Shown: positions 5,875-34,116 of the stretch, one piece after another
Layout of the letters: every line of letters starts with the position of its first letter
How positions within the stretch are numbered: position 1 is the stretch's first letter
Assembly: GCF_030142045.1 (NCBI RefSeq)
Contig: NZ_CP126242.1
Coordinates: 2,852,001-2,916,000, forward strand
From: Arthrobacter sp. zg-Y919
Lineage (GTDB): Bacteria > Actinomycetota > Actinomycetes > Actinomycetales > Micrococcaceae
Length of the DNA: 64,000 bases
Direction: 5' to 3'
Position numbers and translations under genes: made by a program
The notes under the pieces: model-generated
Databases searched by the model: none
Seen by the model: only the letters and a program-made list of their open reading frames with translations
What the model was told of the DNA's origin: nothing

Positions 5875-5890
5875 GTACGTTGAGAACCCG

Positions 5891-7789
5891 TTAGACCTGC
5901 GGCAGACGGGCCGGCAGCAGCGGTGCGAAGAACGCCGCGAGGTCCGCGGTGGCCGTCAGCGGGAGCACATTGGCCACGTACTGGTCCGGGCGGACCACCA
6001 CCACGGCGCCGTTCCGTGAAATCCCGCGCTGCTCGAAGATGTCCGCGGACGGGTCCGCGCCGTAAACCTTGGCCAGGTCGTTGAGCTGGAACGGGCCGAT
6101 CTGCGGCTTGAACACCGGCGGGACGGCGATGAGGTCAATGCCGGTGTGGTCCTGCTGGTAAATGACTTTCACGTCGAACCAGGCGTCGCGGTCGGCGCCC
6201 TCCGGCGTGGCCGCCAGCGGAGAATCCGGCGCGGTGTCCAGCCATTCGGCCAGGTCGGCCACCCGTGAAGGGGTGCCGGCCGCCGCGGCGTCGGCGAAGA
6301 CGTAGATCCGCCATTTGCCGTCCGCCCGCGCCTGGTGGCCGAGGTGCACCGGGTTGGTGTCGCAGACGCGCTGCACGGGCGCCGACTTGAAGCGCTTACC
6401 GAGGGGGAACCCGGCGGCCAGGTCCTGGTGCTTGGGCTCGGCAATGAGCATAGAGGGGGTGTACTCGGTCATAAACCCGGCCGGGAATTCGGCGGTCCGG
6501 ACGTAGAAGTCCTCCAGGTCCGAGGGGTTCTCGAACTCCTCCGGCCGCTTCGCCATGAGCGATGACCACTCCTTGTCGAAGTCAATGAGGTTCTTCGCCA
6601 CCACCTGGCGTTCGGCCGAATACGTGGAGAGCAGGCTTTCCGGGCTGCGGCCGTCCAGCACGTGGCCGAGCTTCCAGCCCAGGTTGAAGCCGTCCTGCAT
6701 GGAGACGTTCATCCCCTGGCCGGCCTTGGCGCTGTGCGTGTGGCAGGCATCGCCGGTGATGAAGACGCGCGGGGTGCGGGCGCCGAGGTCCTCGGGCACG
6801 ACGTCGTCGAACCGGTCGGTGAGCCGGTGGCCCACCTCGTAGACGCTGTGCCAGGCGACGTTGCGGACATCCAGGGTGTAGGGGCTCAGGATGGCGTTGG
6901 CCTTGCCGATGATTTCCTCGATGGTGGTCCTGCGGACGGCACCGTTGTCGTCGTCGGGCACGACGCCGAGGTCCACGTACATACGGAACAGGTGCCCGCC
7001 CTCGCGCGGGATAAGCAGGATGCTGCCGCCGTTGGAGGACTGGATGGCGCATTTGGTGCGGATGTCGGGGAAGTCGGTGTTGGCGAGGACGTCCATCACG
7101 CCCCAGGCGTGGTTGGCCTTGTCGCCGGCCATGGTGCAGCCGATGGCGTCGCGGACCTTGCTGCGTGCACCGTCGGAGCCCACCACGTACTTGGCTTTTA
7201 CGGTGCGCTCGGTGCCCTCGAGCGGGCCGGCGGTGTGCAGGAGGGTGACGGTGACCGGGTACTCGGCGTCGTCGTCGACCTCAAGGCTGCGGAACTCGAA
7301 CCCGTAGTCGGGGGTCATGCGGGTGGGCGAGTTGGCCATGAACCGGGCGAAGTAATCCAGCACGCGGGCCTGGTTGACGATCAGGTGCGGGAATTCGCTG
7401 ATCCCGGCGGGGTCATCCAGCGCGCGGCCGGAGCGGACAATGTTCTGCGGGTTTTCCGGGTCCGGGCGCCAGAAGCACATTTCCGTGATGCGGTAGGCCT
7501 CGGCGGTGATTTCCTCCGCGAAGCCGAACGCCTGGAAGGCTTCCACGCTGCGGGCCTGGATGCCGTCCGCCTGGCCGATGACCAGACGGCTGTCCCGGCG
7601 CTCCACGATCCGGGTGGTGACACCGGGGAACTGCGACAGCTGCGCGGCGGTGAGCATCCCGGCGGGCCCCGACCCCACGATCAGTACGTCGACTTTGTCG
7701 GGCAGATCGGCGGGACGGTCGACGCCGGTGCCGGCCGCCGGCTGGACGCGGGGGTCGCCGGATACGTAGCCGTGGTGGTGGAACTGCAC
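5891..7789 (-). CDS. FAD-dependent aromatic monooxygenase, 3-hydroxybenzoate 4-monooxygenase (MobA)-like
   Basis: The 632-residue class A flavoprotein hydroxylase starts MQFHHHGYVSGDP, has the FAD motif VGSGPAG at 38-44, the second FAD/NADPH motif with SDGARSKVRDAIG, the ribityl motif GDACHTHSAKAGQGMN, and a C-terminal thioredoxin-like phenol hydroxylase domain ending RPDQYVANVLPL. Length and the unusual N terminus match Comamonas 3-hydroxybenzoate 4-monooxygenase, which converts 3-hydroxybenzoate to protocatechuate with NADPH and O2. Phenol 2-monooxygenases share the fold and remain possible. GAGGA lies 5 bp before the GTG start. No ring-cleavage genes are adjacent, so the pathway context is missing here. 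Confidence 0.83.
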   Translation of the reverse strand: MQFHHHGYVSGDPRVQPAAGTGVDRPADLPDKVDVLIVGSGPAGMLTAAQLSQFPGVTTRIVERRDSRLVIGQADGIQARSVEAFQAFGFAEEITAEAYRITEMCFWRPDPENPQNIVRSGRALDDPAGISEFPHLIVNQARVLDYFARFMANSPTRMTPDYGFEFRSLEVDDDAEYPVTVTLLHTAGPLEGTERTVKAKYVVGSDGARSKVRDAIGCTMAGDKANHAWGVMDVLANTDFPDIRTKCAIQSSNGGSILLIPREGGHLFRMYVDLGVVPDDDNGAVRRTTIEEIIGKANAILSPYTLDVRNVAWHSVYEVGHRLTDRFDDVVPEDLGARTPRVFITGDACHTHSAKAGQGMNVSMQDGFNLGWKLGHVLDGRSPESLLSTYSAERQVVAKNLIDFDKEWSSLMAKRPEEFENPSDLEDFYVRTAEFPAGFMTEYTPSMLIAEPKHQDLAAGFPLGKRFKSAPVQRVCDTNPVHLGHQARADGKWRIYVFADAAAAGTPSRVADLAEWLDTAPDSPLAATPEGADRDAWFDVKVIYQQDHTGIDLIAVPPVFKPQIGPFQLNDLAKVYGADPSADIFEQRGISRNGAVVVVRPDQYVANVLPLTATADLAAFFAPLLPARLPQV

Positions 7790-8117: not shown

Positions 8118-9323
8118 ATGCCGCATCTGCCGCGCCCGCCCCTTCCCGCTGCCCGCATCTCGGACGAAACCCACCGGGTCACCACCTTTGAGCTGTTCTT
8201 CGACCTCGTGTTCGTGTTCGCCTTCACGCAGGTCACGGGATTCATGGTGCATGAGTATTCATTCCTGGGGGTCCTGCAGGGGATGGTCGTCCTGGTCCTG
8301 CTCTGGTGGTCCTGGGCGCCCTTCTCCTGGCTCGCCAACCAGGCCCACGCCGACGAAGGACTCATGCGGTTCGGCCTGTCCGCCGTCATGGTGGCGATTT
8401 TCATTGCCGCACTCGCCATCCCGGAAGCCTTCGAAGACCTCGACGGCGGCCTCCACGGCCCGCTGGTACTTGCCTTTGCATACACGGCGGTCCGGGTCCT
8501 GCACCTGGGCCTGTACGTATATGCGGCCGGGAACGATCAGCCGCTGCGGCGCCAGATAGCCAAGCTGACCTTCACCGCTGTTCTGGGAGCCGCGCTGGTC
8601 ATCACCGGGGCGTTGCTGGGCGGAACCGCGCAGACCTGGTTCTGGCTGGCCGGCATGGCGCTGGACACCGGCATCACCTTCCTCATCTCGTGGCACGGGA
8701 ACTGGCGGGTCCACTCGGCGGTGCACTGGACCGAGAGGTACGGGCTCGTGATCATCCTCGCGCTCGGCGAATCCATCGTGTCTATCGGTGTGGGGGCATC
8801 CGAGGTGCCCGTGAGCGTGCCGGTGCTTGTTGGTGCGGCGGCCGGCATCTGCCTGTCCATCGGACTCTGGTGGCTCTACTTCGACGTGACGGCAGTGGCC
8901 GCCGAACACCGCTTCGCCGCACTGCGCGGGTCCACCCGGTCTTCTGCCGCCGTCGTCGCGTACACCTACCTGCACCTGCCCCTCGTTGCCGGCGTTATCC
9001 TGACCGCTTTGGGCGTGGAGGACGCGCTGGCGCATCTCGAGGAGGGGAAGGGCCTGGGCCGCGTCGGTGCTTTCGCGTTGTTCGTCGGCCCGGCGATGTA
9101 TCTCCTGGCCAGTGCCGCCTTCGCGTGGAGGATGGGCAGCGGCTGGAAGAAGTGGCGGCTGGGAACGGCTGCACTGCTGCTGGTTCTGATGGTGATTGGC
9201 CTGCCGTTGACCTCTTTGGCGGCACTTCTCCTCGTTACCGCACTGATCGTGGGGCTGGTTGCCGTGGAGAGCCTGCTTCACCGCGAGGCCCGGGGGCGGA
9301 TACGGGGTTCACAAGCGGCGTGA
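8118..9323 (+). CDS. ltrA: Low temperature requirement A (LtrA) family membrane protein
   Basis: This 401-residue membrane protein opens with the family signature ETHRVTTFELFFDLVFVFAF (residues 16-35) and then carries about ten to eleven hydrophobic helices, including WWSWAPFSW and GESIVSIGVG. LtrA was named in Listeria for growth at low temperature; the biochemical role is unknown. The ATG at 8118 fits the N terminus of homologues. It stands alone between two copies of the palindromic repeat, and the small membrane gene ynfA follows. Confidence 0.88.
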   Translation: MPHLPRPPLPAARISDETHRVTTFELFFDLVFVFAFTQVTGFMVHEYSFLGVLQGMVVLVLLWWSWAPFSWLANQAHADEGLMRFGLSAVMVAIFIAALAIPEAFEDLDGGLHGPLVLAFAYTAVRVLHLGLYVYAAGNDQPLRRQIAKLTFTAVLGAALVITGALLGGTAQTWFWLAGMALDTGITFLISWHGNWRVHSAVHWTERYGLVIILALGESIVSIGVGASEVPVSVPVLVGAAAGICLSIGLWWLYFDVTAVAAEHRFAALRGSTRSSAAVVAYTYLHLPLVAGVILTALGVEDALAHLEEGKGLGRVGAFALFVGPAMYLLASAAFAWRMGSGWKKWRLGTAALLLVLMVIGLPLTSLAALLLVTALIVGLVAVESLLHREARGRIRGSQAA

Positions 9324-9359
9324 CTTGCGGGCTGGCATAGGTCCCTCCGCACTTGCACT

Positions 9360-9444
9360 TCTGCTGCCACTTTGAGGTTTTGCTGCCGCTTTGAACCGGC
9401 AGCAGCTTCCCAAAGTGGCAGCAGATTCCCAAAACGGCAGCAGA
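9360..9444. repeat. GGCAGCAG modular palindromic repeat, copy 2
   Basis: This 85-bp copy aligns end to end with copy 1 and keeps all five GGCAGCAG-type units in the same order and orientation. Substitutions cluster between the units, while the units themselves and the CAAAGTGGCAG and AGATTCCC blocks are conserved. It lies between the ltrA stop and the ynfA start. Confidence 0.8.
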
Positions 9445-9488
9445 AAACCGGGCCAGGCATGCCCCGAACCTGCGGCAGGATGGATGCC

Positions 9489-9830
9489 ATGACCATTGCA
9501 AAAACCATCCTGCTCTTCCTGCTCGCAGCCGCTGCGGAAATCGGCGGCGCCTGGCTGGTGTGGCAGTCCGTGCGGGAGGACCGGGCGTGGTGGTGGGCCG
9601 GCCTGGGCGTGATGGCCCTGGGCGTCTATGGGTTTGTGGCCACGCTCCAGCCGGATGCGCATTTCGGCCGGATCCTGGCCGCCTACGGTGGAGTGTTCGT
9701 GGCCGGATCCCTGGTGTGGGGCATGGTGTTCGACGGCTTCCGGCCCGACCGCTGGGACATCCTCGGCTCGCTGATCTGCCTCGTGGGGGTCGCCGTGATC
9801 ATGTTCGCTCCCCGCAGCCCGGTGTCGTAA
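9489..9830 (+). CDS. ynfA: YnfA/UPF0060 small membrane protein
   Basis: The 113-residue protein has four hydrophobic helices and the UPF0060 landmarks [14 protein letters not shown] near residue 14, [12 protein letters not shown], and the final [20 protein letters not shown]. The family is related to small multidrug resistance transporters, and some members are reported to export cationic compounds. The start at 9489 is chosen because GGCAGGA is 8 bp upstream; an in-frame ATG at 9480 overlaps that site. Confidence 0.88.
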
Positions 9831-9868
9831 TTGATTCCGGGAGCCGGAGGTTTGGCCCGGGAAGACGG

Positions 9869-9892
9869 CGGAGTCCAATGTTCCGGACTCCG
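9869..9892. terminator. Hairpin after ynfA
   Basis: CGGAGTCC and GGACTCCG pair across an 8-nt loop, 38 bp after the ynfA stop. No T-tract follows. Terminator is the likeliest role. Confidence 0.5.
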
Positions 9893-10011
9893 GACCCATC
9901 CCCTCTCGGAGGCCAATCCGCTATTCTTTGGACGTCGGCCGCCGTACAGAGTCTGACCCCCGCGAGGCCTGCCGGACGGCGCAACAAGCCGCTGCAGAGA
10001 GGTCGCCGATC

Positions 10012-11448
10012 ATGGCCAGTATCCAGGTCAAGCACCCGAGCGTTACAGAACGCGTGGCAGCAGGCAAGGACTGCCGAGAGACAACACCCGTCTCCGCCCA
10101 TCAGGGCTGGGTTCCCAACCCCGATCGCCCGGACCCCGTCGCGCTCATCGAAGAACAGAACCTCACACGGGATCCGGACCTCGTGCCGGTGCGTCACGGC
10201 CGGATGCTTGACTCGCCGTTGACGTTCTACCGCGGTGCAGCCAAGATCATGGCCGCCGACCTCAAGGACACACCTAGGTCCGGCCTGACCACCCAGCTTT
10301 GCGGCGACGCTCATTTGTCGAACTTCGGGGTTTTCGCCTCACCCGAACGGACCCTGCTGTTCGACCTGAATGACTTCGATGAAACACTTCCGGGACCATT
10401 CGAGTACGACGTACTGCGGATGTCCGCCAGTTTCACCATTGCGGCCAGGAACAACTCCTTCACCAGCGAAGAAGCGCGCTCGACAACCCTTGCCGCGGTC
10501 CGGGCGTACCGCGAAGCAATGCGCGAGTTCGCACAAATGGGAACCATGGACATCTGGTACGCACGCCTGACGGAGCAGGATATTTTGTCAGCGGTCCAGC
10601 TGGGGGCGGACACCAGCAAGGGTAAGGGGAAGAAAAAGGCAGCGAAACGGATCGAAAAGAGGGCAGAAAAGACCGCCAGGAAGGCGCGTTCCCGGGACAG
10701 CCTACAAGCACTCTCCAAGCTGGCTGAGCGCGTGGACGGGGAGTACCGAATCGTCAGCCAGCCGCCGATTGTCATCCCCCTCAGGGAGTTCGGTGATTCG
10801 TTCGGCTTATCCGCGGACCAGATCTGGGAGGAATCCCGCGAACAGCTCCGGTCCTACCGGGCCACGCTGCAGGACGACAGACGCTATCTCCTCGAGCGCT
10901 TCGAAATCGTCGACATCGCCCGCAAGGTGGTGGGTGTGGGCAGCGTCGGCACCCGGGGCTTTATCGCGTTGCTTCAGGGCCGCGATTCAGACGACCCCCT
11001 GTTCCTGCAGGTCAAGGAGGCAACCCGGTCAGTCCTTGAGGACCACCTGCCCAAAAGCAGATACCGGCAGCCGGGCCAGCGCGTGGTGCAGGGCCAGCGA
11101 AGGATGCAGGCCGCCAGCGACATTTTCCTTGGCTGGACAAAGGGAGTGCAGGAAAACCGGTACCTGTACTGGCGCCAGCTGCGGGATATGAAAGGCTCAG
11201 CGGTCGTGGAAACGATGAAACCCCTCGGGATGCAGTTTTACGCCCGCACCTGCGGCTGGACACTGGCCCGGGCGCACGCCAGATCAGGAGACCCGGTCGC
11301 GATCGCCGCCTATCTTGGCAAAAGCGAGAAATTCGATAACTCGGTCACCGACTTCTGCGAGCGCTACGCAGATCAAAACGAGCAGGACTATCAAGCCTTC
11401 GCCGACGCGGTACGTTCCGGGCGCCTGCCCGCGGTCGAAGGGGTCTAG
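10012..11448 (+). CDS. DUF2252 family protein (kinase-like fold)
   Basis: This 478-residue protein has the DUF2252 landmarks: FYRGAAKIMAADL, the LCGDAHLSNFGVF motif around residue 101, LLFDLNDFDET about 15 residues later, and a C-terminal HARSGD segment. The HLSN and DLNDFD pair resembles the catalytic and metal-binding residues of aminoglycoside phosphotransferase-like kinases, but no substrate is established. An insertion near residues 204-228 is extremely lysine/arginine-rich and may bind nucleic acid or be a disordered linker. GAGAGG precedes the ATG by about 9 bp. Confidence 0.85.
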   Translation: MASIQVKHPSVTERVAAGKDCRETTPVSAHQGWVPNPDRPDPVALIEEQNLTRDPDLVPVRHGRMLDSPLTFYRGAAKIMAADLKDTPRSGLTTQLCGDAHLSNFGVFASPERTLLFDLNDFDETLPGPFEYDVLRMSASFTIAARNNSFTSEEARSTTLAAVRAYREAMREFAQMGTMDIWYARLTEQDILSAVQLGADTSKGKGKKKAAKRIEKRAEKTARKARSRDSLQALSKLAERVDGEYRIVSQPPIVIPLREFGDSFGLSADQIWEESREQLRSYRATLQDDRRYLLERFEIVDIARKVVGVGSVGTRGFIALLQGRDSDDPLFLQVKEATRSVLEDHLPKSRYRQPGQRVVQGQRRMQAASDIFLGWTKGVQENRYLYWRQLRDMKGSAVVETMKPLGMQFYARTCGWTLARAHARSGDPVAIAAYLGKSEKFDNSVTDFCERYADQNEQDYQAFADAVRSGRLPAVEGV

Positions 11449-23966: not shown

Positions 23967-23997
23967 CTTTGACCTTCGTCAGCTTTTTGGAGTGCGC

Positions 23998-25923
23998 ATG
24001 TCCATTTCCCCTGCCCCGCAGGGCGCTGCCCCCACCACCCGCGCCGAGGCCAGGGCAGAAGCAAAGCGCAAGCACCGCGCCATCCTGCAGGCCCTGACCG
24101 GCCTGCTGCTGGGCATGTTCGTCTCGATGCTGGCCAACACCGTGGTGAGCACCTCGCTGCCGGTCATCATTTCGGACCTCGACGGCGACCAGGCCGCCTT
24201 CACCTGGGTGGTCACCGCCACCCTGCTGGCCACGGCGGTCTCCACCCCGGTCTGGGGCAAGCTTGCGGATCTGCTCAACCGCAAGGTCCTGGTCCAGCTG
24301 GCCTTGATCATCTTCATCGTCGCCAGTGCGGCCGCAGGTTTCGCCCACAACACCGACTGGCTGATCGCCATGCGCGTGATCCAGGGCATCGGCGCCGGCG
24401 GCCTCGGTGCGCTGACCCAGATTGTTATGGCGGACATCGTTTCCCCGCGGGAACGCGGCCGCTACATGGGCCTGTTCGGTGCCGTCATGGCCCTGTCCAC
24501 CGTCGGCGGACCGCTGATCGGCGGCGTCATCACGGATACCGTCAACTGGCGGTGGAACTTCTACGTGGCGGTGCCGCTCGCCGTCGTCGCGCTGGTGATA
24601 ATCCAGAAGACCCTGCACCTGCCGCCGCTGAAGAAGCGGAAGGTGCAGATCGACTACGCCGGCATCATCCTGCTCTCGGCCTCCGTGTCGTGCCTGCTCA
24701 TCTGGGTGTCCCTGGTGGGCACCGACTTCGGCTGGGCCAGTGCCGCCACCGCGTGGATGGTGGGCGGTTCGCTGCTGGGCCTGGCCGCGTTTGTTGCCGT
24801 GGAGCTGAAGGCGTCGGAACCGCTGATCCCGCTGAGCCTGTTCCGCAACCGGACCTTCACCTTCTCGGTGATCGGATCCCTCGCCGTCGGCGTCGCCATG
24901 TTCGGCACTACGGTGTTCCTGTCCCAGTACATGCAGCTGGCCCGCGGCGCCTCCGCGACCATGTCAGGGCTGATGACCATCCCGATGATGGCAGGACTGC
25001 TGATCATCTCCACGCTCGTGGGCCGGATGATCACCAAAACCGGCAAGTGGAAGGCCTACGTGGTGGTCGGATCGGTGCTGCTCACCGCAGGCCTGGTCCT
25101 GATGGGCACCATTGAATACGACACCAATTTCTGGCTGGTCTCGCTGTACATGTTCCTGCTCGGTGCCGGCGTGGGCATGGTGATGCAGAACCTGGTGCTC
25201 GTGGTGCAGAACGACGTTTCCACCCGGGACCTCGGCGTCGCCAGTTCCAGCATCAACTTCTTCCGCACGATCGGCGGCACCGTGGGCGTGTCCGCGCTCG
25301 GCGCGGTGCTGGCCACCCAGGTCACCGACCGGCTGGCGCAGAAGCAGGGCGAGCTGATGTCCGCCATCACTGCGCTCGGTGAAGAGGGCAAGGAAGTCGC
25401 CGCATCACTGGCCTCCGGCAGCATCCCGGATGTGAACGCCCTGCCCGAATCCGTGCGTTTCATTGTCGAATCCGTCTATGGCTCCTCCGTGGCGCACATC
25501 TTCATGATCGCTGCACCGCTGGGGCTCCTGACGCTGCTGGCCGTGCTGTTCCTGCCGAACCTGCCGCTGGGCAGCATGACCCGGCACGAGAAGATGCAGG
25601 CCGAAGAATCTGCCGCGGCGTCCGGCAAAGCGTCCGCGACAACTTCCGCTACGACCTCTGAGACCGTAGCGGCCGTGTCCGAAGGTGCCGCCGGCCATAC
25701 CCCGGAGTCGCCCGCAAAGGGCGCGCCGGCAAAGGATGCGTCATCCGGAAAGGGCTCGCCCGCCGTAAAGAACGCAGCCGCGAAGCGCGCGCCCGCAGGA
25801 AAGGGCGCGCCGGCTGCAAAGGGTGCGCCGACTGCAAAGGGTGCACCCTCCGGAAAGGGCGCACCCGCAGGAAAGGGTTCGTCATCGGGAAAGGGAAAGT
25901 CATCCGGAAAGGGTAAGAACTAG
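23998..25923 (+). CDS. MFS multidrug exporter, DHA2 (EmrB/QacA) family, with long Lys/Ala/Gly tail
   Basis: This 641-residue protein has the 14-helix layout of DHA2 drug:H+ antiporters: ANTVVSTSLPVIISDL in helix 1, the motif A loop WGKLADLLNRK, and motif C in helix 5 (AVMALSTVGGPLIGG). After the last helix (about residue 530) comes a tail of about 100 residues of degenerate KGAP/GKGS repeats, very basic and surely disordered. GGAG lies 5 bp before the ATG at 23998. The MarR gene starts 2 bp after the stop, so the pair forms one operon. Confidence 0.88.
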   Translation: MSISPAPQGAAPTTRAEARAEAKRKHRAILQALTGLLLGMFVSMLANTVVSTSLPVIISDLDGDQAAFTWVVTATLLATAVSTPVWGKLADLLNRKVLVQLALIIFIVASAAAGFAHNTDWLIAMRVIQGIGAGGLGALTQIVMADIVSPRERGRYMGLFGAVMALSTVGGPLIGGVITDTVNWRWNFYVAVPLAVVALVIIQKTLHLPPLKKRKVQIDYAGIILLSASVSCLLIWVSLVGTDFGWASAATAWMVGGSLLGLAAFVAVELKASEPLIPLSLFRNRTFTFSVIGSLAVGVAMFGTTVFLSQYMQLARGASATMSGLMTIPMMAGLLIISTLVGRMITKTGKWKAYVVVGSVLLTAGLVLMGTIEYDTNFWLVSLYMFLLGAGVGMVMQNLVLVVQNDVSTRDLGVASSSINFFRTIGGTVGVSALGAVLATQVTDRLAQKQGELMSAITALGEEGKEVAASLASGSIPDVNALPESVRFIVESVYGSSVAHIFMIAAPLGLLTLLAVLFLPNLPLGSMTRHEKMQAEESAAASGKASATTSATTSETVAAVSEGAAGHTPESPAKGAPAKDASSGKGSPAVKNAAAKRAPAGKGAPAAKGAPTAKGAPSGKGAPAGKGSSSGKGKSSGKGKN

Positions 25924-25925
25924 CC

Positions 25926-26390
25926 GTGACGGCGCCGGTAGCGGGGGACGCTGGCGATGGGACCTTCGAGTCCTCTGTGCTGGAGGTGGAACGCGAGTTC
26001 TCGGTGACACTTGCGGCAGCCCGCCGGATCTTCAAGGATTGCGCCACAGCCGTCCATCCGGCCCTGCAGCCCTTGGGGTTCTCGGTGCTGATGACCCTGT
26101 ACCGCACCGGGGAGTGCCAGCAGGGCGCCGTGGCCGAAGCACTTCAGGTGGACAAGGCCCTGCTGAGCCGGACAGTTACCCAGCTGGAAACCCTGGGCCT
26201 TGCGGCCCGGCGGGCGGACCCCTCCGACGGACGGGCCCAGCTGCTCGACCTGACGCCTGAGGGCCGGGTCCGCTTCGAAGGTGTACACAGTGCGAAGCGG
26301 TCCCGGCTGCGGGAGCAGCTGGGAAGCTGGACTCCCGCCGAGCTCAGAAACCTTTCCAAGCTGCTGAACAAGCTCAACGAGCGGGACTGA
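25926..26390 (+). CDS. MarR family transcriptional regulator
   Basis: The 154-residue winged-helix protein has the MarR core: GFSVLMTLYRTGECQQGAVAEALQVDKALLSRTVTQLETLGLAARR, then the wing DPSDGRAQLLDLT. It begins at a GTG 2 bp after the MFS exporter stop. It most likely represses that operon through the palindrome at 23951-23966 and is released by an exporter substrate. Its 3' end overlaps the histidine kinase gene by 17 bp on the opposite strand. Confidence 0.88.
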   Translation: MTAPVAGDAGDGTFESSVLEVEREFSVTLAAARRIFKDCATAVHPALQPLGFSVLMTLYRTGECQQGAVAEALQVDKALLSRTVTQLETLGLAARRADPSDGRAQLLDLTPEGRVRFEGVHSAKRSRLREQLGSWTPAELRNLSKLLNKLNERD

Positions 26391-27996
26391 TCCCGCCCGC
26401 AGTCTCCACACCGGGCAGGGATACCGTGAACTCGCTTCCCTCCCCCGGGCTGCTGACGAAGCTCAGCTCGCCGCCATGGGCCGCCACGATGTTCCTGGTG
26501 ATCACCAGTCCCAGGCCGACGCCGGGAATGGCAGAGGCAATGGCGCGGCGGGCGCGGAAGAATTTTGTGAAGACCTTTTCCTGTTCGGCTTCGCTCATCC
26601 CGATCCCGGTGTCCGCCACGCAAAGCCGGACCGCCTCCGCGTCCTGCCACAGCCGCACCGTCACCGTCCCACCGCCGGGTGAGTACTTCACCGCATTGGA
26701 CAGCAGATTATCGACCACCTGGGCCAGGCGCTGCGGATCCACGTCCGCAATCAGCGATTCCGGAATGTCGGTTACCAGCGCAACCCGGCTCGCAGCGGCC
26801 TTCGGGGCTGCCGACACCACACCCGCCCGCACAATTTCGGCAAGGTTCATCGGGCGGCGGTCCATTTTCGTGGCGCCCGACGCCACGGACAGCAGATCGG
26901 AGACCAGTGCCAGCAAGCGTTCCGAGTTGCGCAGCGCAATCTCGATGGCTGATTTCACCTGCGGAGACAGCCCCTCCTCGTCCAGGGCGAGGTCCAGGTA
27001 GCCCATGATGGAGGTCAGCGGAGTCCGCAACTCGTGCGACACGCTGGCTACGAACTCCTCCTGCGCCGCCACGGCACGGACCAGCCGGCTGACGTCGCTG
27101 AAGGCAATCACGGATCCGGAGAAGGATCCCTCGCCTTTAATGGGCCGGGCCGAAACGTTAAGGGCCATCTCATGCTCGCCGGCACCGAACCATACCAATT
27201 GGTCGGAGAAGGCCTCTCCGGCGGCGGCCCGCCTAGCGGGGTTATCGGCATCGCCGATGGGCGTCACCCGGTCCGGACCGAACATCGTTTGTTCCTTCGC
27301 GGTGATGGGAATATCCCCCATGACCCGGCGCCAGCTGGAGAGCAGGTGGGTGTTGGTAAGCAGCGTGTTGCCCTTCGGATCCACCACCAGCAGGCCGACG
27401 TCGGCGGCGTCCAGAACCGATTCCAGCAGGGCCTCGCGTTCCCGGCTTTCCAACAGGTTCGCCTGCAGGATGCGGTCCTTTTCCTCCAGGGCCTTCTGCT
27501 TTTGTCGGATTTCCTCCTCTGCTGCGGCCCGGGCCGCTTCCGCCGCCTCTGCTTTCCGCAGGGCCGCCACGAGATCCTGCTCGTAGAGCCGGCGTTCGGA
27601 GGCGTTAAAAACGGCAATCCGGTCAATCTCGGCACCGTTCCCACCGTCTTCGGAGCGCACACCTGAGAGGAGGACCGGGACACACTCCCCGTCCGCAGAC
27701 ACCAGGTCCGCCGCCATTTCATTGAAGCACCCGGATACTGCGAGCTGCGGCACGGCATAGGAGGAGAAGAGCACTTGGTCCGCCCGCGGCATCAGGTCAA
27801 GGATGTTGCCGCCGAGCAGTCCGTCCCTGGAGCGCCCGGTCCAGGAGGCCAGTGTCTGGTTGACATCCAGGATCGTACCGTCGGTGGTGAGGACGAGATA
27901 TCCGGAGGCCGCAGCATGGAAGTGTTTCTCGTAATCCATGCCCGGGTCGGTGTTTTCAGGGTTCTTGTGCCGGGGGTGGCCGTCAATGCTAGGCAC
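26374..27996 (-). CDS. PAS-domain sensor histidine kinase (partner of RsbQ-like hydrolase)
   Basis: The 540-residue kinase has no membrane segment. It carries PAS 1 at about 22-135, an Ala/Glu coiled coil at 140-190, PAS 2 at about 190-305, a HisKA domain with His321 in SVSHELRTP, and a HATPase_c domain with N box DNLLSNAVKYSP (429-440), G1 DTGIGM (462-467) and G2 GVGLGL (492-497). It is therefore a cytosolic sensor. GGAGG precedes the GTG start by 9 bp, and its start overlaps the hydrolase stop by 8 bp. No response regulator is adjacent. Confidence 0.9.
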   Translation of the reverse strand: MPSIDGHPRHKNPENTDPGMDYEKHFHAAASGYLVLTTDGTILDVNQTLASWTGRSRDGLLGGNILDLMPRADQVLFSSYAVPQLAVSGCFNEMAADLVSADGECVPVLLSGVRSEDGGNGAEIDRIAVFNASERRLYEQDLVAALRKAEAAEAARAAAEEEIRQKQKALEEKDRILQANLLESREREALLESVLDAADVGLLVVDPKGNTLLTNTHLLSSWRRVMGDIPITAKEQTMFGPDRVTPIGDADNPARRAAAGEAFSDQLVWFGAGEHEMALNVSARPIKGEGSFSGSVIAFSDVSRLVRAVAAQEEFVASVSHELRTPLTSIMGYLDLALDEEGLSPQVKSAIEIALRNSERLLALVSDLLSVASGATKMDRRPMNLAEIVRAGVVSAAPKAAASRVALVTDIPESLIADVDPQRLAQVVDNLLSNAVKYSPGGGTVTVRLWQDAEAVRLCVADTGIGMSEAEQEKVFTKFFRARRAIASAIPGVGLGLVITRNIVAAHGGELSFVSSPGEGSEFTVSLPGVETAGGISPAR

Positions 27997-28804
27997 GGGT
28001 GCTCGCCTCCAGGTACTCCAGAATGGCCCCTGCAGTTTCCCGGGGAGAACTAAGGTGCGGCATGTTCCCGCGTGCTAACAGGTCCACACGCGTGCTTTGG
28101 GAAAGATGGCTGTGCAGGAACAACGACGCCGGTTCCGGGGTCAGCGGGTCGCCCGGGGACTGCAGGATCAGGGCCGGGACAGACACCTGGGGCAGTAGTT
28201 GCCGGACGTCCGCGGCGAAAGACATCTCCAGGAAGTCACGCACATACTCCGGACGCAACCGGCACATGTTCTCCGCCAGTTCGCCGCTCACCTCGGAGCC
28301 GGGTTCCGCGCCTGCTATTTCCGGCGCCATCGCCCGTGCCCACAGGGGGTAGTTGACTTCCACCATCTGCAGGACAGCCTCGATGTCCTCCGGCTGAAGC
28401 CCACCGGAGTACCCCTCGTCGTTCACATAGCAGGGCGAGGCGCAGAGTAGGACAAGACGCGCGATCCTCGGGCTCCGCGTCGCCGCCGCCAGTGCCATCG
28501 TGCCGGCGATGCTGTGCCCGACGACCGTAGCGTCGTCCAGCTCCAGCACATCAATGATTTCGATCAGGTCTGCCAGGTAACCCTCGAAGGCAGCATATTT
28601 AGCGTCGCCGTAGGCATCCGGATCAGCACCTCCGGTTCCAACATGGTCGAACAACACCACTTTGTAGGTGTCCGTAAAGAACGGCAGAATCCGGTCCCAG
28701 ATGACTTGGTCACAGCCAAAACCCTGCGCCAAAAGCAGCGCGGGACCGTCCGTACGTCCGAGGACCCGGACATTGTTGCGGTGGATCACTGCGTCCGCAT
28801 TCAT
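27989..28804 (-). CDS. RsbQ-like alpha/beta hydrolase
   Basis: This 271-residue protein matches Bacillus RsbQ and the KAI2/D14 group through its length: FAPGFGCDQ-like QGFGCDQVIWD at the N terminus, VVGHSIAG with nucleophile Ser98, SPGDPLTPE with Asp219, and RGNMPHLSSP with His250, a full catalytic triad. RsbQ activates the PAS phosphatase RsbP in the energy-stress branch of the Bacillus SigB response, and plant relatives sense butenolides. Here the overlapping partner is a PAS histidine kinase instead of a phosphatase. AAAGG is 6 bp from the ATG. Confidence 0.88.
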   Translation of the reverse strand: MNADAVIHRNNVRVLGRTDGPALLLAQGFGCDQVIWDRILPFFTDTYKVVLFDHVGTGGADPDAYGDAKYAAFEGYLADLIEIIDVLELDDATVVGHSIAGTMALAAATRSPRIARLVLLCASPCYVNDEGYSGGLQPEDIEAVLQMVEVNYPLWARAMAPEIAGAEPGSEVSGELAENMCRLRPEYVRDFLEMSFAADVRQLLPQVSVPALILQSPGDPLTPEPASLFLHSHLSQSTRVDLLARGNMPHLSSPRETAGAILEYLEASTRA

Positions 28805-29347
28805 CCTGTACCTTTCGTTGGTCTTGTTCACGCCTCGCTGGCAGCGCAATTGGCTGTGCACCGGGAATCCGGTGCGGAGCAGGCTGGTGGACGGGCCTCT
28901 GGCCTGTCAAAGGGGAAGAATCAACGTCCGCCCAACTGGTTTTCAGCGGCAGGAAAGCCGGAGAACCAACATTGTCATCCGGCCATTTGGCCGACACGCT
29001 GCCGGGTTCCGGCCCCTGCCCTACAAGGGGCGGGCAGGTTTTTCAGCGGGTGAAGGGGAACTGACTGCGGGCCCTGCTGTGGCCGGAGCGGCACACGGAG
29101 CAAAGGACTTACCGGTCGTATTGCGCATGAAATGGAAACCTTATAACGAGACTGTTTCAATCACCGGCGAGTTCGCCGGAGCGGAAGGCGCGAAAAGCGC
29201 TGGATTCCTCTTCGAAACCTAACAGAACGACCACCACAGGAGAAAATCAGGTGGCTTAGTTTCGCCGGAATGGACATCCAAACGAAGCCCTCATAAGTCT
29301 CGATGCGGAACTGCGTCGATGTGAGCTTCTAAATCGAAGACTCAGCG
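28805..29347. other. 543-bp gene-free region left of the MarR/ABC exporter unit
   Basis: The region lies between the start of the leftward RsbQ-like gene and the stop of a leftward MarR gene. It is less GC-rich than its surroundings. It contains a good intrinsic terminator pointing right (29015-29043), a perfect CCGGCGA/TCGCCGG hairpin at about 29163-29178, and a 31-codon ATG frame at 29127-29222 without a ribosome site. I see no convincing gene; a small RNA or decayed sequence is possible. Confidence 0.5.
29015..29043 (+). terminator. Orphan intrinsic terminator
   Basis: CCTGCCC and GGGCAGG pair across a 10-nt loop and are followed by five T residues, a classical rho-independent terminator on the plus strand. 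No rightward gene ends upstream of it, so it would stop an unannotated transcript or an antisense transcript. Confidence 0.55.
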
Positions 29348-29845
29348 TTAGCCTTTCAAGCCGTCCCCGCTCCCGCTGAGCTCCCCGAGGATCCGTGCGA
29401 GCTCTACCCGGTCGCCCGGTTCCAGGACGGAAAAGAACTCATCTGCCTCACGCTTCCGGTCCGCCAGCACCGTGCCACGCAGCTTTTCCCCCGCGTCGGT
29501 CAGCCTCAGCAGAGTAGCCCGACGGTCGGTCGGGTGCGCCCGGCGCTCCATGAGCCCCTTCGCGGTCAATTGATCCACCACCTCGGTGGCTGACCGCGGG
29601 GCAATACGCAGCCGCTCCGCCAGTTCCTTCAACCGCAGCCCCGGCTCACCGGCTTCGTGTGCGCCGACGGGCGCATCGGCGGGCCCACCCCCCTCCGGCT
29701 CAGCCGCCCGGGCCACCGCATTCATCGCCCGGAACTGATGCGGGGTCAGCTCATACGGTGCGAGCTGGTGCATCCACCGCTTCCGCAGCCTGCGGAACGC
29801 CGCGTGCATCAGTTCTCCCAGAGCGGCCGGGTCCGTGTTATCCAT
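29348..29845 (-). CDS. MarR family transcriptional regulator (exporter-linked)
   Basis: The 165-residue winged-helix protein has the MarR core RLKELAERLRIAPRSATEVVDQLTAKGLMERR followed by the wing HPTDRRATLLRLT. An Ala/Gly/Glu-rich insertion of about 20 residues separates helix 2 from the HTH, longer than usual. It is transcribed away from the ABC exporter gene across a 95-bp gap holding repeated GGTAACC boxes, the normal arrangement for local control. Confidence 0.87.
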   Translation of the reverse strand: MDNTDPAALGELMHAAFRRLRKRWMHQLAPYELTPHQFRAMNAVARAAEPEGGGPADAPVGAHEAGEPGLRLKELAERLRIAPRSATEVVDQLTAKGLMERRAHPTDRRATLLRLTDAGEKLRGTVLADRKREADEFFSVLEPGDRVELARILGELSGSGDGLKG

Positions 29846-29870
29846 GAAGACGAGTCTACCCACATTTGCC

Positions 29871-29902
29871 GGTAACCACATAATGAGGTAACCTCTGCAT
29901 TA
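29871..29902. promoter_or_regulatory. Candidate operator between marR and ABC exporter
   Basis: GGTAACC occurs twice in direct orientation, 16 bp apart (29871-29877 and 29887-29893), and TAATG...CATTA (29881-29902) brackets the second copy. The boxes sit between divergent regulator and exporter genes, 39-70 bp before the exporter ATG. Confidence 0.5.
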
Positions 29903-29940
29903 GCTGCCGCCTCGCACCTCACGGCAGCACAGGAGGAATC

Positions 29941-31803
29941 ATGGCTATTCCCGAAGCGGCCCCTGCGGCCCCCGGAAGCGGTAGAGGATCAGGTGGCGGG
30001 CCCGGCCCCGCGAAACTGAATCCCGCCGATCAAAAACAGCTGAACCGGCATCCGGTTTCCCTGCGGCGCATCGCCGCACTCTTCGCCCCGCACAAGGGGA
30101 CCATCGCCGTCGTCGTACTGCTGATCACCGCCTCCTCGGTGGTCGGACTCGCCCAGCCGTTCCTGGTCCGGGCTGTAATCGATGACGCACTCCCGCACGG
30201 CAACACCCGCCTGCTGCTGTTCCTCACCGCATCCATGGTGGGCGTGGCGGCACTGACCGCCGCGATCGGCGTGGTGCAGACCTGGCTGGCCACGAGCATG
30301 GGCCAGCGCGTGATGCATACCCTGCGCGTGAAGCTCTTTACCCACCTGCAGGCCCAGTCGCTCGGCTTCTTCACCCGCACCCGCGGCGGGGAGGTGCAGT
30401 CCCGGCTCACGCACGATATTTCCGGCATGCAGTCGGTCGTCACCACAACCGCCACAGGCGTAGCCTCCAACCTCACGACCGCGGTTGCGACCGCCGTCGC
30501 GATGGTGGCCCTCTCCCCCGGGCTGAGCCTGATCTCGCTCGTGGTGCTGCCGCCCGCGATCTGGCTCTCCCGGCGCGTAGCAATGATCCGCCGCGACGTC
30601 ACCGATGAACGCCAGCGCGAACTCGCCGCCCTGCACACCCAGGTGGAGGAGGGCCTCTCGGTCTCGGGCGTGCGGCTGGCCAAAACCCTGGGCACCGTAC
30701 CGCGCGACGCCGACCGGTTCCGCGCGCGCTCGGAGACCCTCGTGGGCCTGGAGCTGCGCAGCCAGCTCGCCGGGCGCTGGCGGATGGCGACCATGCAGAT
30801 TGTCTTCGCGGCCATTCCGGCCGTCATCTACCTCGCCGCGGGTTTCCCTGCCACCAACGGCGGAATGACCATCGGCACCCTGGTGGCGTTCACCGGGCTG
30901 CAAGCGGGCATCTTCCGGCCGGTGATGGGCCTGCTGAACATCGGCGTGCAGTGGGTAACCGCCCTGGCGTTCTTCAGCCGGATCTTCGAATACCTGGATC
31001 TTGAGCCACAGATCCGCCCAGCCGCCGCTCCCGTCCGGCTGGATCCGGCCGCGGTCCACGGTGACGTGCGGTTCCAGGACGTGCATTTCACCTACGACGA
31101 CGGCACAGAAGTCCTGCACGGCATCGACCTGACACTGCCCGCCGGGACCACCACCGCAGTCGTTGGATCCACCGGCTCCGGCAAGAGCACCCTGGCGTCC
31201 CTGCTGCCGCGGCTGAACGACACCAGCTCGGGCCGCGTCAGCATCGATGGCGTGGACGTGCGCGATCTGGCCCCCGAGGATCTGGCCCGGATTGTCGGTG
31301 TCGTCTCCCAGGAGACCTATCTGATCCACGCTTCCATCCGCGAGAACCTGCTGCTCGCCGATCCGGACGCCAGCGACGACCAGCTATGGTCCGCCCTGGC
31401 CGCGGCGCAGATGGCCGACACCGTCGGCGCCCTGCCCGAGGGCATGGACACCCTGGTGGGGGCGCGCGGCCACCGTTTCTCCGGCGGCGAGCAGCAGCGC
31501 CTGGCCATTGCCCGCACCATCCTGCGCAATCCGCCGGTCCTGGTCCTGGACGAGGCCACCTCGGCGCTGGACAACACCACCGAGGCGCAGGTGCAGCTGG
31601 CCCTGGAGCACCTCTCCGCCGGGCGCACCACGCTGACCATCGCCCACCGGCTCTCAACCGTGGAGAACGCGGACCAGGTGGTGGTGCTCGACGCCGGCCG
31701 GGTCATCGAGACGGGGTCACCGGCCGAACTCCGGGCAGCCGACGGTGCGTTTGCCCGGCTTGCCGCGCACACAGCCACGCTGGAGGACAACCTCTCCCGC
31801 TAG
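29941..31803 (+). CDS. ABC exporter half-transporter (TMD-NBD fusion)
   Basis: The 620-residue protein has a Pro/Gly-rich N terminus, an ABC_membrane domain with six helices (about 60-345), and a nucleotide-binding domain with Walker A GSTGSGKST at 409-417, signature FSGGEQQRLA, Walker B VLVLDEATSALD and switch His in IAHRLST. It should work as a homodimer or with a remote partner, as no second half-transporter is adjacent. AGGAGG is 5 bp before the ATG. MarR control is inferred from the divergent layout; a drug or lipid substrate is likely but not identifiable. Confidence 0.9.
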   Translation: MAIPEAAPAAPGSGRGSGGGPGPAKLNPADQKQLNRHPVSLRRIAALFAPHKGTIAVVVLLITASSVVGLAQPFLVRAVIDDALPHGNTRLLLFLTASMVGVAALTAAIGVVQTWLATSMGQRVMHTLRVKLFTHLQAQSLGFFTRTRGGEVQSRLTHDISGMQSVVTTTATGVASNLTTAVATAVAMVALSPGLSLISLVVLPPAIWLSRRVAMIRRDVTDERQRELAALHTQVEEGLSVSGVRLAKTLGTVPRDADRFRARSETLVGLELRSQLAGRWRMATMQIVFAAIPAVIYLAAGFPATNGGMTIGTLVAFTGLQAGIFRPVMGLLNIGVQWVTALAFFSRIFEYLDLEPQIRPAAAPVRLDPAAVHGDVRFQDVHFTYDDGTEVLHGIDLTLPAGTTTAVVGSTGSGKSTLASLLPRLNDTSSGRVSIDGVDVRDLAPEDLARIVGVVSQETYLIHASIRENLLLADPDASDDQLWSALAAAQMADTVGALPEGMDTLVGARGHRFSGGEQQRLAIARTILRNPPVLVLDEATSALDNTTEAQVQLALEHLSAGRTTLTIAHRLSTVENADQVVVLDAGRVIETGSPAELRAADGAFARLAAHTATLEDNLSR

Positions 31804-31825
31804 CCGGAAGCCAGGGCGCCGGGAT

Positions 31826-32203
31826 TCAGTCGTCCTTCCAGCCAACACAGAGGCAGAAGGGGTGGCCTGCCGGATCCAGGAACACGCGGAAGGTCCTCCC
31901 CAGCTGGTGCTCGTGTTTGGTTGCCCCCAGCGCGAGGACAGCAGCCTCGGCCTCGTCCAGGTCGTCAACATCCACGTCGATATGCATCTGCTGGGGCATG
32001 TCCTGGCCTGGCCAGGCCGGTGGCGCGTAGTTCTCCACCTTCTGGAAGGAGTAGCGCTGACCGGTGACGTCGGAGATTTCGGTCCAGTCGCCGTCGTACC
32101 CGTTCAAGTCCACCTTCCAATCCAGGAGGGTGCCGTAGAAGGTGGCGAGTGCCACGGGATCCGGGCAGTCGATAACAGTGATGGGAGCGCGTGCGATAGC
32201 CAT
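31826..32203 (-). CDS. VOC (glyoxalase/bleomycin resistance-like) family protein
   Basis: The 125-residue protein has the paired beta-alpha-beta-beta-beta modules of the vicinal oxygen chelate fold: TVIDCPDPVALATFYGTLLDWK at the start, HIDVDVDDLDEAEAAVLALG in the second module, and a terminal VFLDPAGHPFCLC. This form is common in actinobacteria with unknown ligands. It is convergent with the ABC exporter (22-bp gap). A short GGCAG repeat separates it from the next leftward gene. Confidence 0.87.
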   Translation of the reverse strand: MAIARAPITVIDCPDPVALATFYGTLLDWKVDLNGYDGDWTEISDVTGQRYSFQKVENYAPPAWPGQDMPQQMHIDVDVDDLDEAEAAVLALGATKHEHQLGRTFRVFLDPAGHPFCLCVGWKDD

Positions 32204-32268
32204 GGGAGGAAGCCTAGGACCAATTGCGGACAACCACTGTCCGCATGGAAACTTTTTCGCGCCGTGGC

Positions 32269-32318
32269 GTTTCTGCTGCCGGTTTAAACCGGCAGTAGAA
32301 ACGCAAAGTGGCAGTAGA
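32269..32318. repeat. GGCAGCAG modular palindromic repeat, short copy 3
   Basis: This 50-bp version has one inverted and two direct units. It keeps the same perfect 20-bp central palindrome as copy 1 (32276-32295) and the AAAGTGGCAGTAGA unit. The stem extends to CGTTTCTGCTGCC/GGCAGTAGAAACG with one mismatch. It lies between two leftward genes. Confidence 0.8.
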
Positions 32319-32323
32319 CGTTC

Positions 32324-32779
32324 CTAGCCGCGCGCCTGCAGGGCCCGGTTCAGGGCAACTAGCGCCTCCGCTGCCGCCTCCAGCGCCTCCCGCTGCTCAT
32401 CATCCAGGCGGGCGATTCCGGCGCGGATAGGCCCCGCCCAGGCATGGGCAATAACCTCATTCTGCGCCCGGGCCTCCTCGGTGGGCTCCAGGAGGCTGAC
32501 CCGCCGGTCCGTGGGGCTGCTTGCCCGGGCCACCAGCCCACGCTCGGTCAGCGTACGGACGGCCGCGCTGGCATTGCTCTGCTTGAGCCCCATCAGCCGG
32601 GCCAGCTCGGTGACCGTCAGGCCCGGAGTGTCCAGCACATGCTTGAGCACAGCCAACTCGGTGCTGGGCAGCGGTTCGATCCCGGTGATCTCCGGCGGCT
32701 TCCGATGGATGTTCCAGGAAAGATCGCGCAGCAGGTCCGCAATTTCGCGCGGTGCCGCGGGCACGCCGTCGTTGGTCAT
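32324..32779 (-). CDS. MarR family transcriptional regulator (MFS-linked)
   Basis: The 151-residue protein has a standard MarR winged helix: ELAVLKHVLDTPGLTVTELARLMGLKQSNASAAVRTLTERGLVAR, then the wing SPTDRRVSLLE. It is divergent from the Bcr/CflA exporter with a 92-bp gap that includes an AT-rich palindrome, so control of the exporter and itself is likely. The repeat element lies 6 bp beyond its stop. Confidence 0.88.
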   Translation of the reverse strand: MTNDGVPAAPREIADLLRDLSWNIHRKPPEITGIEPLPSTELAVLKHVLDTPGLTVTELARLMGLKQSNASAAVRTLTERGLVARASSPTDRRVSLLEPTEEARAQNEVIAHAWAGPIRAGIARLDDEQREALEAAAEALVALNRALQARG

Positions 32780-32810
32780 GCCAACGATCCTAGCGCATAT
32801 CTTAGAATAT

Positions 32811-32824
32811 ATATGTCCACATAT
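32811..32824. promoter_or_regulatory. Candidate MarR operator, ATATGT-CC-ACATAT
   Basis: A perfect 6-2-6 inverted repeat lies in an AT-rich patch (about 32796-32830) between the divergent MarR and MFS genes, 48 bp before the exporter ATG. Further CATAT-like half-sites overlap it. This is the only such patch nearby. Confidence 0.6.
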
Positions 32825-32871
32825 GCTATGCTCGCTCGGCACTTATACGGTTTGAGAAGAAGGTTTTTTCC

Positions 32872-34116
32872 ATGACGAGCACCCCGCTCCCAGCACCGCC
32901 TGCCCGGCGGCCCAAGGCCGGCATGCTGACCGGCATCCTGGCCCTGCTCACCGCAGCGGCCCCGCTGTCCATCGACATGTACCTGCCGGCTTTCCCCCAC
33001 ATGGCGGAGGACCTGAACACCAGCGCCACCGGCATCCAGCTGACCATGACGGCGTTCCTGGTGGGCCTCGCCATCGGCCAGCTGGTCATCGGCCCGCTCT
33101 CGGACGGCATCGGCCGGCGTAAGCCGCTGCTGATCGGCTCCTTCGTGGCCCTGCTGGCCACCCTGCTGTGCGCCGTGGCACCGAACGTCGAAATCCTGAC
33201 CACCGCCCGCTTCCTGCAGGGCCTCGGCGGCGCCGCCGGCATTGTGCTGGCCCGCGCCATCGTCTCCGACACGTCCCGCGGTGCGGCTGCTGCCAAGCTG
33301 CTGGGCGTACTGACCATGATCAGCGTCATTGCCCCCGTGGTCGGCCCGCTGGCCGGCGGTGCCATCATTGCCGCCGGCGGCTGGCGCATGGTGTTCTGGG
33401 TCCTCGCGACCCTTGTCCTGCTGATGTTCCTGGGCGCCCTGTTCGGCGTGAAGGAAACCCTGGCCGAGGCCGACCGCAACCGCGGCGGACTCAAGACCAC
33501 CTTCCGGGTGGCCGGCGAAGTGCTGCGCAACCGCAACTACACCGGCTACCTGCTGACCTTCTGCTTCTCCTTCGCGGGTCTCTTCGCGTACATCGCCGCG
33601 TCCCCGTTCGTGATCCAGAACATCCTCGGCATGTCCGAGACCCGGTTCTCGCTGGTGTTTGCCATGAACGCCGTGGCCATCACCATTGTCAGCGCCGTGG
33701 CCGCCGCCCTGGCCGGCAAGGCACCGTACCGCCTGATGATTGCCATCGGCCTGGCGGTAGCCGTGCTGGCAGCTGCCGGCATGCTCATCGCGATGTCCAA
33801 CGGCACTCCGATGGTCCCCACCCTGGTGCTGTTCGCCGTCTTCCAGGGGTCCCTGGGCCTGATCTTCGGCAATGCCACGGCGTTGGCCCTTGAAGAAGCC
33901 GGGCACCACGCCGGCACCGGGTCCGCGTTCCTGGGCTCCCTGCAGTTCCTGCTGGCTGCCCTGGTGTCCCCGCTGGTTGGCCTCTGGGGCGAAGAAACCG
34001 GCGTGCCGATGGCCGTGGCCATGCTTGGCTTCCTGGTCCTCGCCGCCGCGTCCTTCCTGCTGCTCACGCGCAGGAGCACGTCCGTGGAGGCACCGGCCGA
34101 GTCAGCTGCCGTCTAG
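32872..34116 (+). CDS. MFS drug resistance transporter, Bcr/CflA family
   Basis: The 414-residue, 12-helix transporter matches Bcr/CflA proteins: AAPLSIDMYLPAFPHMAEDL in helix 1, the motif A loop GPLSDGIGRRKPLLIG (about residues 74-89), FLQGLGGAAGIVLARAIVSD in helix 4, and the PLAGGAIIAAGGWRMVFW helix 5/6 region. Members export chloramphenicol, bicyclomycin, sulfonamides or cysteine, so the substrate is open. GAAGG lies before the ATG. A strong terminator follows. Confidence 0.9.
   Translation: MTSTPLPAPPARRPKAGMLTGILALLTAAAPLSIDMYLPAFPHMAEDLNTSATGIQLTMTAFLVGLAIGQLVIGPLSDGIGRRKPLLIGSFVALLATLLCAVAPNVEILTTARFLQGLGGAAGIVLARAIVSDTSRGAAAAKLLGVLTMISVIAPVVGPLAGGAIIAAGGWRMVFWVLATLVLLMFLGALFGVKETLAEADRNRGGLKTTFRVAGEVLRNRNYTGYLLTFCFSFAGLFAYIAASPFVIQNILGMSETRFSLVFAMNAVAITIVSAVAAALAGKAPYRLMIAIGLAVAVLAAAGMLIAMSNGTPMVPTLVLFAVFQGSLGLIFGNATALALEEAGHHAGTGSAFLGSLQFLLAALVSPLVGLWGEETGVPMAVAMLGFLVLAAASFLLLTRRSTSVEAPAESAAV

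Follow-up and report, generated by a model that had tools for sequence, protein, structure and literature searches.

A putative pseudo-hydrolase receptor of the RsbQ family overlapping a cytosolic PAS histidine kinase in Arthrobacter

Gene pair at the locus

The window analyzed here is a stretch of 64,000 nucleotides from Arthrobacter sp. zg-Y919, covering positions 2852001-2916000 of a 3.08 Mb genome assembled as one contig (G000:C1). On its minus strand an RsbQ-like alpha/beta hydrolase is encoded directly upstream of a PAS histidine kinase. The two open reading frames (ORFs) overlap by 8 bp, as in the original prediction for this DNA; the overlap is contingent on the GTG start of the kinase, and with the next ATG (residue 20) a gap would be left instead. 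At its 3′ end the kinase ORF shares 17 bp with a convergent MarR ORF. The hydrolase belongs to a clade designated A, gene pairs of the window type are called module A, and the paralogous pairs of the genus are called module B (hydrolase clade B). Positions are those of the window.

27989..28804, minus strand: RsbQ-like alpha/beta hydrolase of clade A, ATG start, 271 aa (Abhydrolase_6 by Pfam; match to RsbQ, 1wom)
28724..28726, minus strand: Gln27, at the position of AtD14 His26, a pocket residue invariant across D14/KAI2
28511..28513, minus strand: Ser98, nucleophile position, kept in the window and Thr in 19/57 clade A proteins
28148..28150, minus strand: Asp219, triad acid, kept
28064..28066, minus strand: codon AAC, Asn247, replacing the catalytic His
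28055-28057, minus strand: His250, second His of the motif
26374..27996, minus strand: cytosolic PAS-helix-PAS histidine kinase, GTG start, 540 aa
27637..27933, minus strand: PAS1 of the RsbP-PAS type, residues 22-120 (Pfam)
27427..27597, minus strand: helical linker, probable coiled coil, residues about 134-190 (helix 133-164 in an AlphaFold2 (AF2) model, remainder inferred)
27088..27426, minus strand: PAS2, residues about 191-303, with a DIT-like D-V-S at its end (inferred from homologues)
26878..27066, minus strand: HisKA with phospho-acceptor His321, residues 311-373 (Pfam)
26413..26739, minus strand: HATPase_c, residues 420-528 (Pfam)

The closest solved structure of the hydrolase was RsbQ (1wom, E 8.6e-56), followed by KAI2 and D14, and the hydrolase domain of the AF2 model matched RsbQ/KAI2/D14 with a target TM of about 0.9. 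Sequence and fold homology therefore place it in this family by descent, and the likeness to RsbQ that had been predicted was upheld. The arrangement is that of the RsbQ-PAS module, an RsbQ homologue encoded directly upstream of a PAS protein, and the histidine kinase is one of the outputs of such modules (PPM, histidine kinase or GGDEF).

The HisKA and HATPase domains of the earlier reading were recovered by Pfam, with H-box, N-box and G-boxes present. The highest 19-residue Kyte-Doolittle mean in the kinase was 1.55, which indicates no clear transmembrane segment and agrees with the cytosolic location proposed. As to the two PAS domains, PAS1 was confirmed by Pfam, and PAS2 could be traced only via homologues and alignment: it gave no Pfam match in the window kinase, but forms a conserved block in the homologue alignment, and in one homologue (L126) the best PAS_4 stretch covers residues 192-303, below threshold by itself. 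A coiled coil of 21 or more residues separating PAS and output is a mark of RsbQ-PAS modules; in this region the AF2 model, which ends at kinase residue 165, contains one long helix at kinase residues 133-164.

RsbP itself was outside the alignment, and its register on PAS1 was inferred as an ungapped offset of +21. At this offset, window G32, L34, M69, Q74 and L76 would stand for RsbP G11, L13, L48, Q53 and F55, and F77, Y80, P83, E93 and P107 for C56, Y59, P62, E72 and P86; the equivalents of P9/C10 are A/S. Across 41 clade A and B kinases, the E72 equivalent was present in 41, an aromatic at the Y59 equivalent in 41, the P86 equivalent in 39 and the P62 equivalent in 37, and no DIT motif was found after PAS1. 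On this register, most RsbP-PAS diagnostic residues are thus found together with the lack of DIT. The phospho-acceptor H321 was kept in 17/17 clade A and 24/24 clade B kinases, and clade A kinases retained N430, D462 and G464 (17/17) as well as Asn434 and Gly496 (16/17). They formed one group, mirroring the hydrolases (99% by SH-like approximate likelihood ratio test, SH-aLRT, quick method).

Active-site residues of the clade A hydrolases

In the alignment to RsbQ (1wom), RsbQ G-H-C-P-H lies over window G-N-M-P-H. The catalytic His of RsbQ is His247 (PMC3548789); the crystal chain carries two extra start residues, which makes His247 the first His of this motif, where the window has Asn247. A modelling study of 2012 prints ‘His250’ for RsbQ (PMC3436726). 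Among 80 named RsbQ loci, column 247 was His in 78, the two exceptions being members of clade A (the other 78/78 keep His27 as well), and column 250 was H50 Q22 N8. Residue 250 is unlikely to be the catalytic His of the RsbQ family, because the column holds Gln or Asn in 30/80 of these loci. The full triad of Ser98, Asp219 and His250 assigned by the original prediction was rejected on this ground: Ser98 and Asp219 are kept, and the column of the RsbQ catalytic His is Asn. The hydrolase has the Ser and Asp of the Ser-His-Asp triad of serine hydrolases without the His, and the intact triad of RsbQ-PAS modules is broken by H247N. A pocket His is also lost. The AtD14 His26 position is among the eight invariant pocket residues of D14/KAI2 (PMC10191409), and its counterpart in the window, taken from the HGFG motif, is Gln27.

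The genus sample comprised 29 genomes including the window's own, searched for RsbQ-like proteins at E<=1e-40. Module A was found in 16/29 genomes and module B in 26/29; G022 is counted among the 16 though its hydrolase (L081) is frame-split, and G024 has neither module. Position 247 in the 17 intact A loci was N12 S3 T1 H1, with Gln27 in these loci, and module B kept both His27 and His247 in 24/24 loci, as did two more B loci (L126 and L127). Sequencing error was rejected as the cause of the loss at 247, as N/S/T occurs in 16/17 intact clade A loci from 15 genomes, the window's own included. A protein search at E<=1e-60 returned 82 proteins, of which 57 were clade A members with the region covered (window protein included; truncated P0080 left out of the counts). 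These were N41 S12 T2 H2 at 247, Q27 in 57/57 and S38 T19 in the Ser98 column, with His97, Asp219 and His250 all 57/57. The other 24 proteins kept His27, Ser98 and His247 throughout, with His, Gln or Asn at residue 250. Outside the genus (family and phylum samples), His247 was present in 32/33 fetched loci, L124 being frameshifted and unreadable, and the hits at E<=1e-40, drawn from 197 genomes of the family and 396 of the phylum, included no window-type member.

In a tree of 68 rows (42 genus sequences and 26 chosen others), clade A was monophyletic (support 100/100) on a long stem of 0.55. The fewest changes on this tree were one at position 27 and three at 247 (scored as His or not), and we read the history of 247 as one loss and two returns. 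The sister of clade A was L084 (G014, 5399-6214), an RsbQ-like protein with an intact triad, followed by a flavodoxin-type gene and no kinase. An Arthrobacter-like RsbQ module was also encoded in L183 (WNZI01000003.1, titled Vibrio cholerae strain 35D), a record that is probably mislabelled or contaminated.

Two models of signalling were set out in PMC3183031: delivery of a hydrolase product to the PAS domain (Model 1), or ligand occupancy of the hydrolase, signalled by contact (Model 2). Under Model 1, clade A hydrolases would still be enzymes, with His250, or Asn/Ser/Thr247 acting via a water, supporting slow or changed chemistry, perhaps through a long-lived acyl-enzyme on Ser98. The retention of Ser98 in 38/57 proteins and of His97, Asp219 and His250 in all 57 fits such an activity. 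We nevertheless consider it unlikely, given that His27 is lost in 57/57 and His247 in 55/57 proteins (both losses mapped to the clade stem by our reading), that Ser98 has become Thr in 19/57, and that His250 is no new gain, being found also in 24/24 intact clade B loci.

Kinase pairing and a candidate response regulator

The kinase ORF overlapped the hydrolase ORF in 17/17 intact clade A loci (gaps of -4 to -65; start codons were taken as the longest reading, and exact overlap lengths are therefore approximate). A HisKA and HATPase protein followed in 41/42 genus hydrolase loci, the exception being L084. In 70/80 named RsbQ loci an RsbP-like PAS frame lay downstream (six of the query PAS sequences were drawn from these loci), and among 35 downstream ORFs of the wider samples 20 were of SpoIIE/PP2C type and 5 HisKA, with kinase outputs in actinobacteria outside the genus at L125 and L170. 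That the two genes are unlinked neighbours brought together by chance is very unlikely. No PAS was found downstream in 10/80 named RsbQ loci, and L084 has no kinase, but a kinase follows in 41/42 genus loci and all 17 clade A pairs overlap. The earlier link between the hydrolase and a two-component kinase as a non-chance adjacency is thus sustained. The refuting observation then proposed, homologous hydrolases rarely next to a kinase, did not arise within the genus, and holds more nearly in the wider samples, where SpoIIE/PP2C outputs are commoner than HisKA (20 vs 5 of 35).

Of the 16 genomes that have module A, 14 also have module B. In the window genome the second RsbQ paralogue (G000:C1:2761214-2762005) is 52% identical to the window hydrolase and is likewise followed by a PAS-PAS kinase, 51% identical to the window kinase. 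This coexistence, and the mixed dimers that paralogous kinases could form, would suit a pseudo-hydrolase acting in trans, by competing or heteromerizing with module B. Against it, G007 and G018, both rated 100% complete, carry module A as their single RsbQ-like hit at E<=1e-40, and neither gave a hit to a B-type kinase. As a general account, modulation of module B as the only role of module A was rejected for these two genomes' lack of B, and a trans-acting role overall is judged quite improbable.

Three further loci are recorded here. L128 (G000:C1:2958494-2959957) is a cytosolic orphan without a neighbouring hydrolase hit; the first PAS of this kinase is RsbP-like, and in the quick tree it is sister to the clade A kinases on a long branch. 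At L081 a full-length kinase ORF lies downstream of the split hydrolase, which also has Asn at the catalytic position. The second clade A copy of L078 lies close to another clade A module in G016; its kinase differs at several residues at or near the N-box and G-boxes, keeps the H-box intact, and may be a pseudokinase.

No receiver was found adjacent to the pair, the nearest of the 16 receiver hits in the genome being >60 kb away, which bears out the earlier statement that no response regulator is adjacent. Twelve of the 16 hits, judged by position, have their own kinase nearby and were set aside; one is the receiver-kinase protein at 551-553 kb, and two of the 16 lie in L031. L025 (ANTAR-like by eye) and L028 (NarL-like by eye) have no kinase nearby and were judged less likely partners for a HisKA kinase.

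The candidate is a regulator at G000:C1:883931-884752, OmpR-type by eye, with a membrane kinase on either side (882152 and 884850). Among the kinases compared, the closest kin of the window kinase were module B, the orphan at 2958494 and these two membrane kinases, which in G000 are 48-49% identical to it from PAS2 onward. In the surroundings of the H-box the flanking kinases match the window kinase at 21 and 22 of 26 residues; three regulator-paired kinases caught by the search pattern match at 13, 13 and 16 of 26 (hk448 and hk1644 were not caught). In the genus sample 29/29 genomes carry the regulator, and by inspection one or more hits to kinases of the family lie no further than about 3 kb from it in every genome (in G022 the regulator match covers 123 of 274 residues). 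It is plausible that one regulator is shared by several kinases of the family. L036 (G000:C1 about 551362-552966) has an N-terminal receiver-like region, weak (39.9 bits) and degenerate by eye, a GAF-like middle (by eye) and a HisKA-HATPase end.

In nine of 16 fetched stretches the module is flanked by MFS-MarR genes on one side and by MarR-ABC genes on the opposite side. Of these two flanks, only MarR-ABC is present in L067 and L074, and in L078 these flanking genes surround two modules. In the window, positions 23992-34116 hold three MarR-type genes, each beside a likely exporter gene: a DHA2 MFS protein (23992-25923), an ABC protein (29941-31803) and an MFS protein (32872-34116), the last two assigned by eye. 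Pfam was run on two of the three MarR genes and on the first MFS exporter, whose C-terminal tail (about the last 60 residues) is repetitive and rich in Lys-Gly-Ala-Pro-Ser.

Signalling without hydrolysis and its alternatives

Taken as a whole, we lean, by a little over even chances, towards clade A being the pseudo-hydrolase receptor of an RsbQ-PAS module that drives a histidine kinase and the genus-wide regulator. The broader statement, that in a lineage within RsbQ/KAI2/D14 a signalling hydrolase lost catalysis and became a receptor still driving a PAS kinase, is put forward more tentatively and is somewhat doubtful. Model 2 is favoured for clade A because a hydrolase without its catalytic base is still kept with a PAS kinase. 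The sequences themselves show the module, the overlap, the loss of the triad, the retention of the pair across the clade and the kinase motifs; that hydrolysis is lost, that a ligand is bound, that PAS1 is contacted and which regulator is served we infer from them. The hydrolase would bind a small hydrophobic ligand without turnover, sitting on PAS1 (F-alpha helix) of a dimeric kinase; the ligand-dependent contact would set kinase activity via the linker and PAS2; and phosphate would then pass to the regulator at 883931-884752. The small-molecule-sensing kinase offered by the original prediction was accordingly judged the right kind of model.

RsbP F55 and Y59 in F-alpha are required for RsbQ contact, and a potential coiled coil was noted in 36/45 proteins (PMC3183031). 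A published AF2 model of a 2:2 complex has RsbQ lodged between the PAS domain and the linker (PMC12143880). Non-hydrolytic lactone perception in which the His adjoining the catalytic Ser carries an adduct was described in 2026 (PMC13086240), and the counterpart of that His, His97, is kept in 57/57 clade A proteins.

The module resembles RsbQ-RsbP in having an RsbQ homologue directly upstream, an N-terminal RsbP-type PAS and a helical linker (PMC3183031), and differs in that its hydrolase lacks both the catalytic and the pocket His. The RsbQ-PAS-histidine kinase architecture has been known since 2011, histidine kinase being one published output class; in the set of 45 the kinases given are only in Gram-negatives, unlike the actinobacterial module here, and an extra PAS, such as the second PAS of the window kinase, was noted in five (PMC3183031). 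With KAI2/D14, receptors for strigolactone and karrikin, the window hydrolase shares family, fold and proposed ligand sensing; their triad is considered functional in all members (PMC10191409) and is missing in clade A, and their output is an F-box/SMXL complex rather than a kinase. The gibberellin receptor GID1 is also a hydrolase turned receptor, with the catalytic His changed to Val (PMC10191409, PMC3436726), but it belongs to another hydrolase branch, in plants, and the likeness is an analogy that extends no further than the missing catalytic His. Module B has the paralogous hydrolase and PAS-PAS kinase, and unlike module A it keeps triad and pocket His in 24/24 loci under apparently stronger constraint. 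No naturally triad-less RsbQ and no Arthrobacter RsbQ-kinase module was found in the titles and abstracts searched, which missed most subscription papers. Butenolide sensing by RsbQ, as treated by Melville and colleagues in Curr Biol in 2024, is said to involve modification of the catalytic His, the residue that is absent in clade A.

Ratios of non-synonymous to synonymous substitution (dN/dS) were calculated by the method of Nei and Gojobori (NG86) and are rough. Of seven pairs of clade A hydrolases, six gave values of 0.16-0.36 and one showed no non-synonymous change; among clade B hydrolases, three of six pairs gave 0.04-0.09 and a very close pair 0.50, the other two being unusable (one without synonymous change; L021/L093 an artefact of a leading stop sign, dropped). 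Clade A hydrolases are thus under purifying selection, apparently weaker than in clade B.

Several observations weigh against the receptor reading as a whole, regulator included. Triad substitutions in RsbQ were null for signalling in B. subtilis (PMC3183031) and catalytic-site substitutions in D14 lower or abolish sensitivity (PMC10191409), so the broken triad could mean a dead sensor. Two clade A proteins carry His247, and His250, invariant in 57/57 clade A proteins and variable in the 24 others, could point to an altered active site. Fused-chain AF2 of the window hydrolase and PAS1 (1:1) gave a predicted TM score (pTM) of 0.67 with the domains placed without confidence; an intact-triad control (L233, cyanobacterial record) gave 0.71. 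The two models speak neither for nor against an interface, the lack of which was the second refuting observation of the original prediction. The fold alignment had 61 rows (window chain, 3 read-through, 12 hydrolase and 45 PAS rows); an earlier alignment of 97 rows (window, 3 read-through, 48/80 hydrolases and 45/70 PAS) was not folded, about 50 residues of its PAS rows being misaligned. The candidate regulator is proposed from paralogy and position, and a receiver-kinase protein at 551-553 kb (19/26) and the orphan kinase at 2958 kb (21/26) also come close around the H-box. In four of 16 stretches (L076, L079, L080 and L081) the module lies elsewhere, without the tested flanking neighbours, L080 having a single distant MarR match. 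To these are added the apparently weaker constraint, the clade A hydrolase split in two frames at L081 (G022, about 2269-3065), and the degenerate-looking kinase of the second clade A copy in L078 (G016, 9100-10725).

The last three points, together with the presence of module A in 16/29 genomes vs 26/29 for module B, would also suit a relaxed duplicate heading to loss, with its kinase constitutive or drifting. Such decay is rather unlikely, though it deserves some weight: dN/dS is well under 1 in clade A pairs, overlap and kinase motifs are kept 17/17, the clade holds 57 diverse proteins, and G007 and G018 have no RsbQ-like hit besides module A.

Whether catalysis or ligand occupancy matters in RsbQ/KAI2/D14 signalling is an open argument (PMC3183031; Seto et al. 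2019 via PMC10191409), and the 14 genomes with triad-less A beside triad-bearing B offer a natural paired experiment. If the receptor reading is true, neither hydrolysis nor an adduct on the catalytic His is needed for an RsbQ-PAS module to signal, as in Model 2, and clade A would be a bacterial parallel to GID1 inside the family that yields the strigolactone receptors. The histidine-kinase outputs of the RsbQ-PAS module are widened to actinobacteria, and several sensors may feed into the one candidate regulator.

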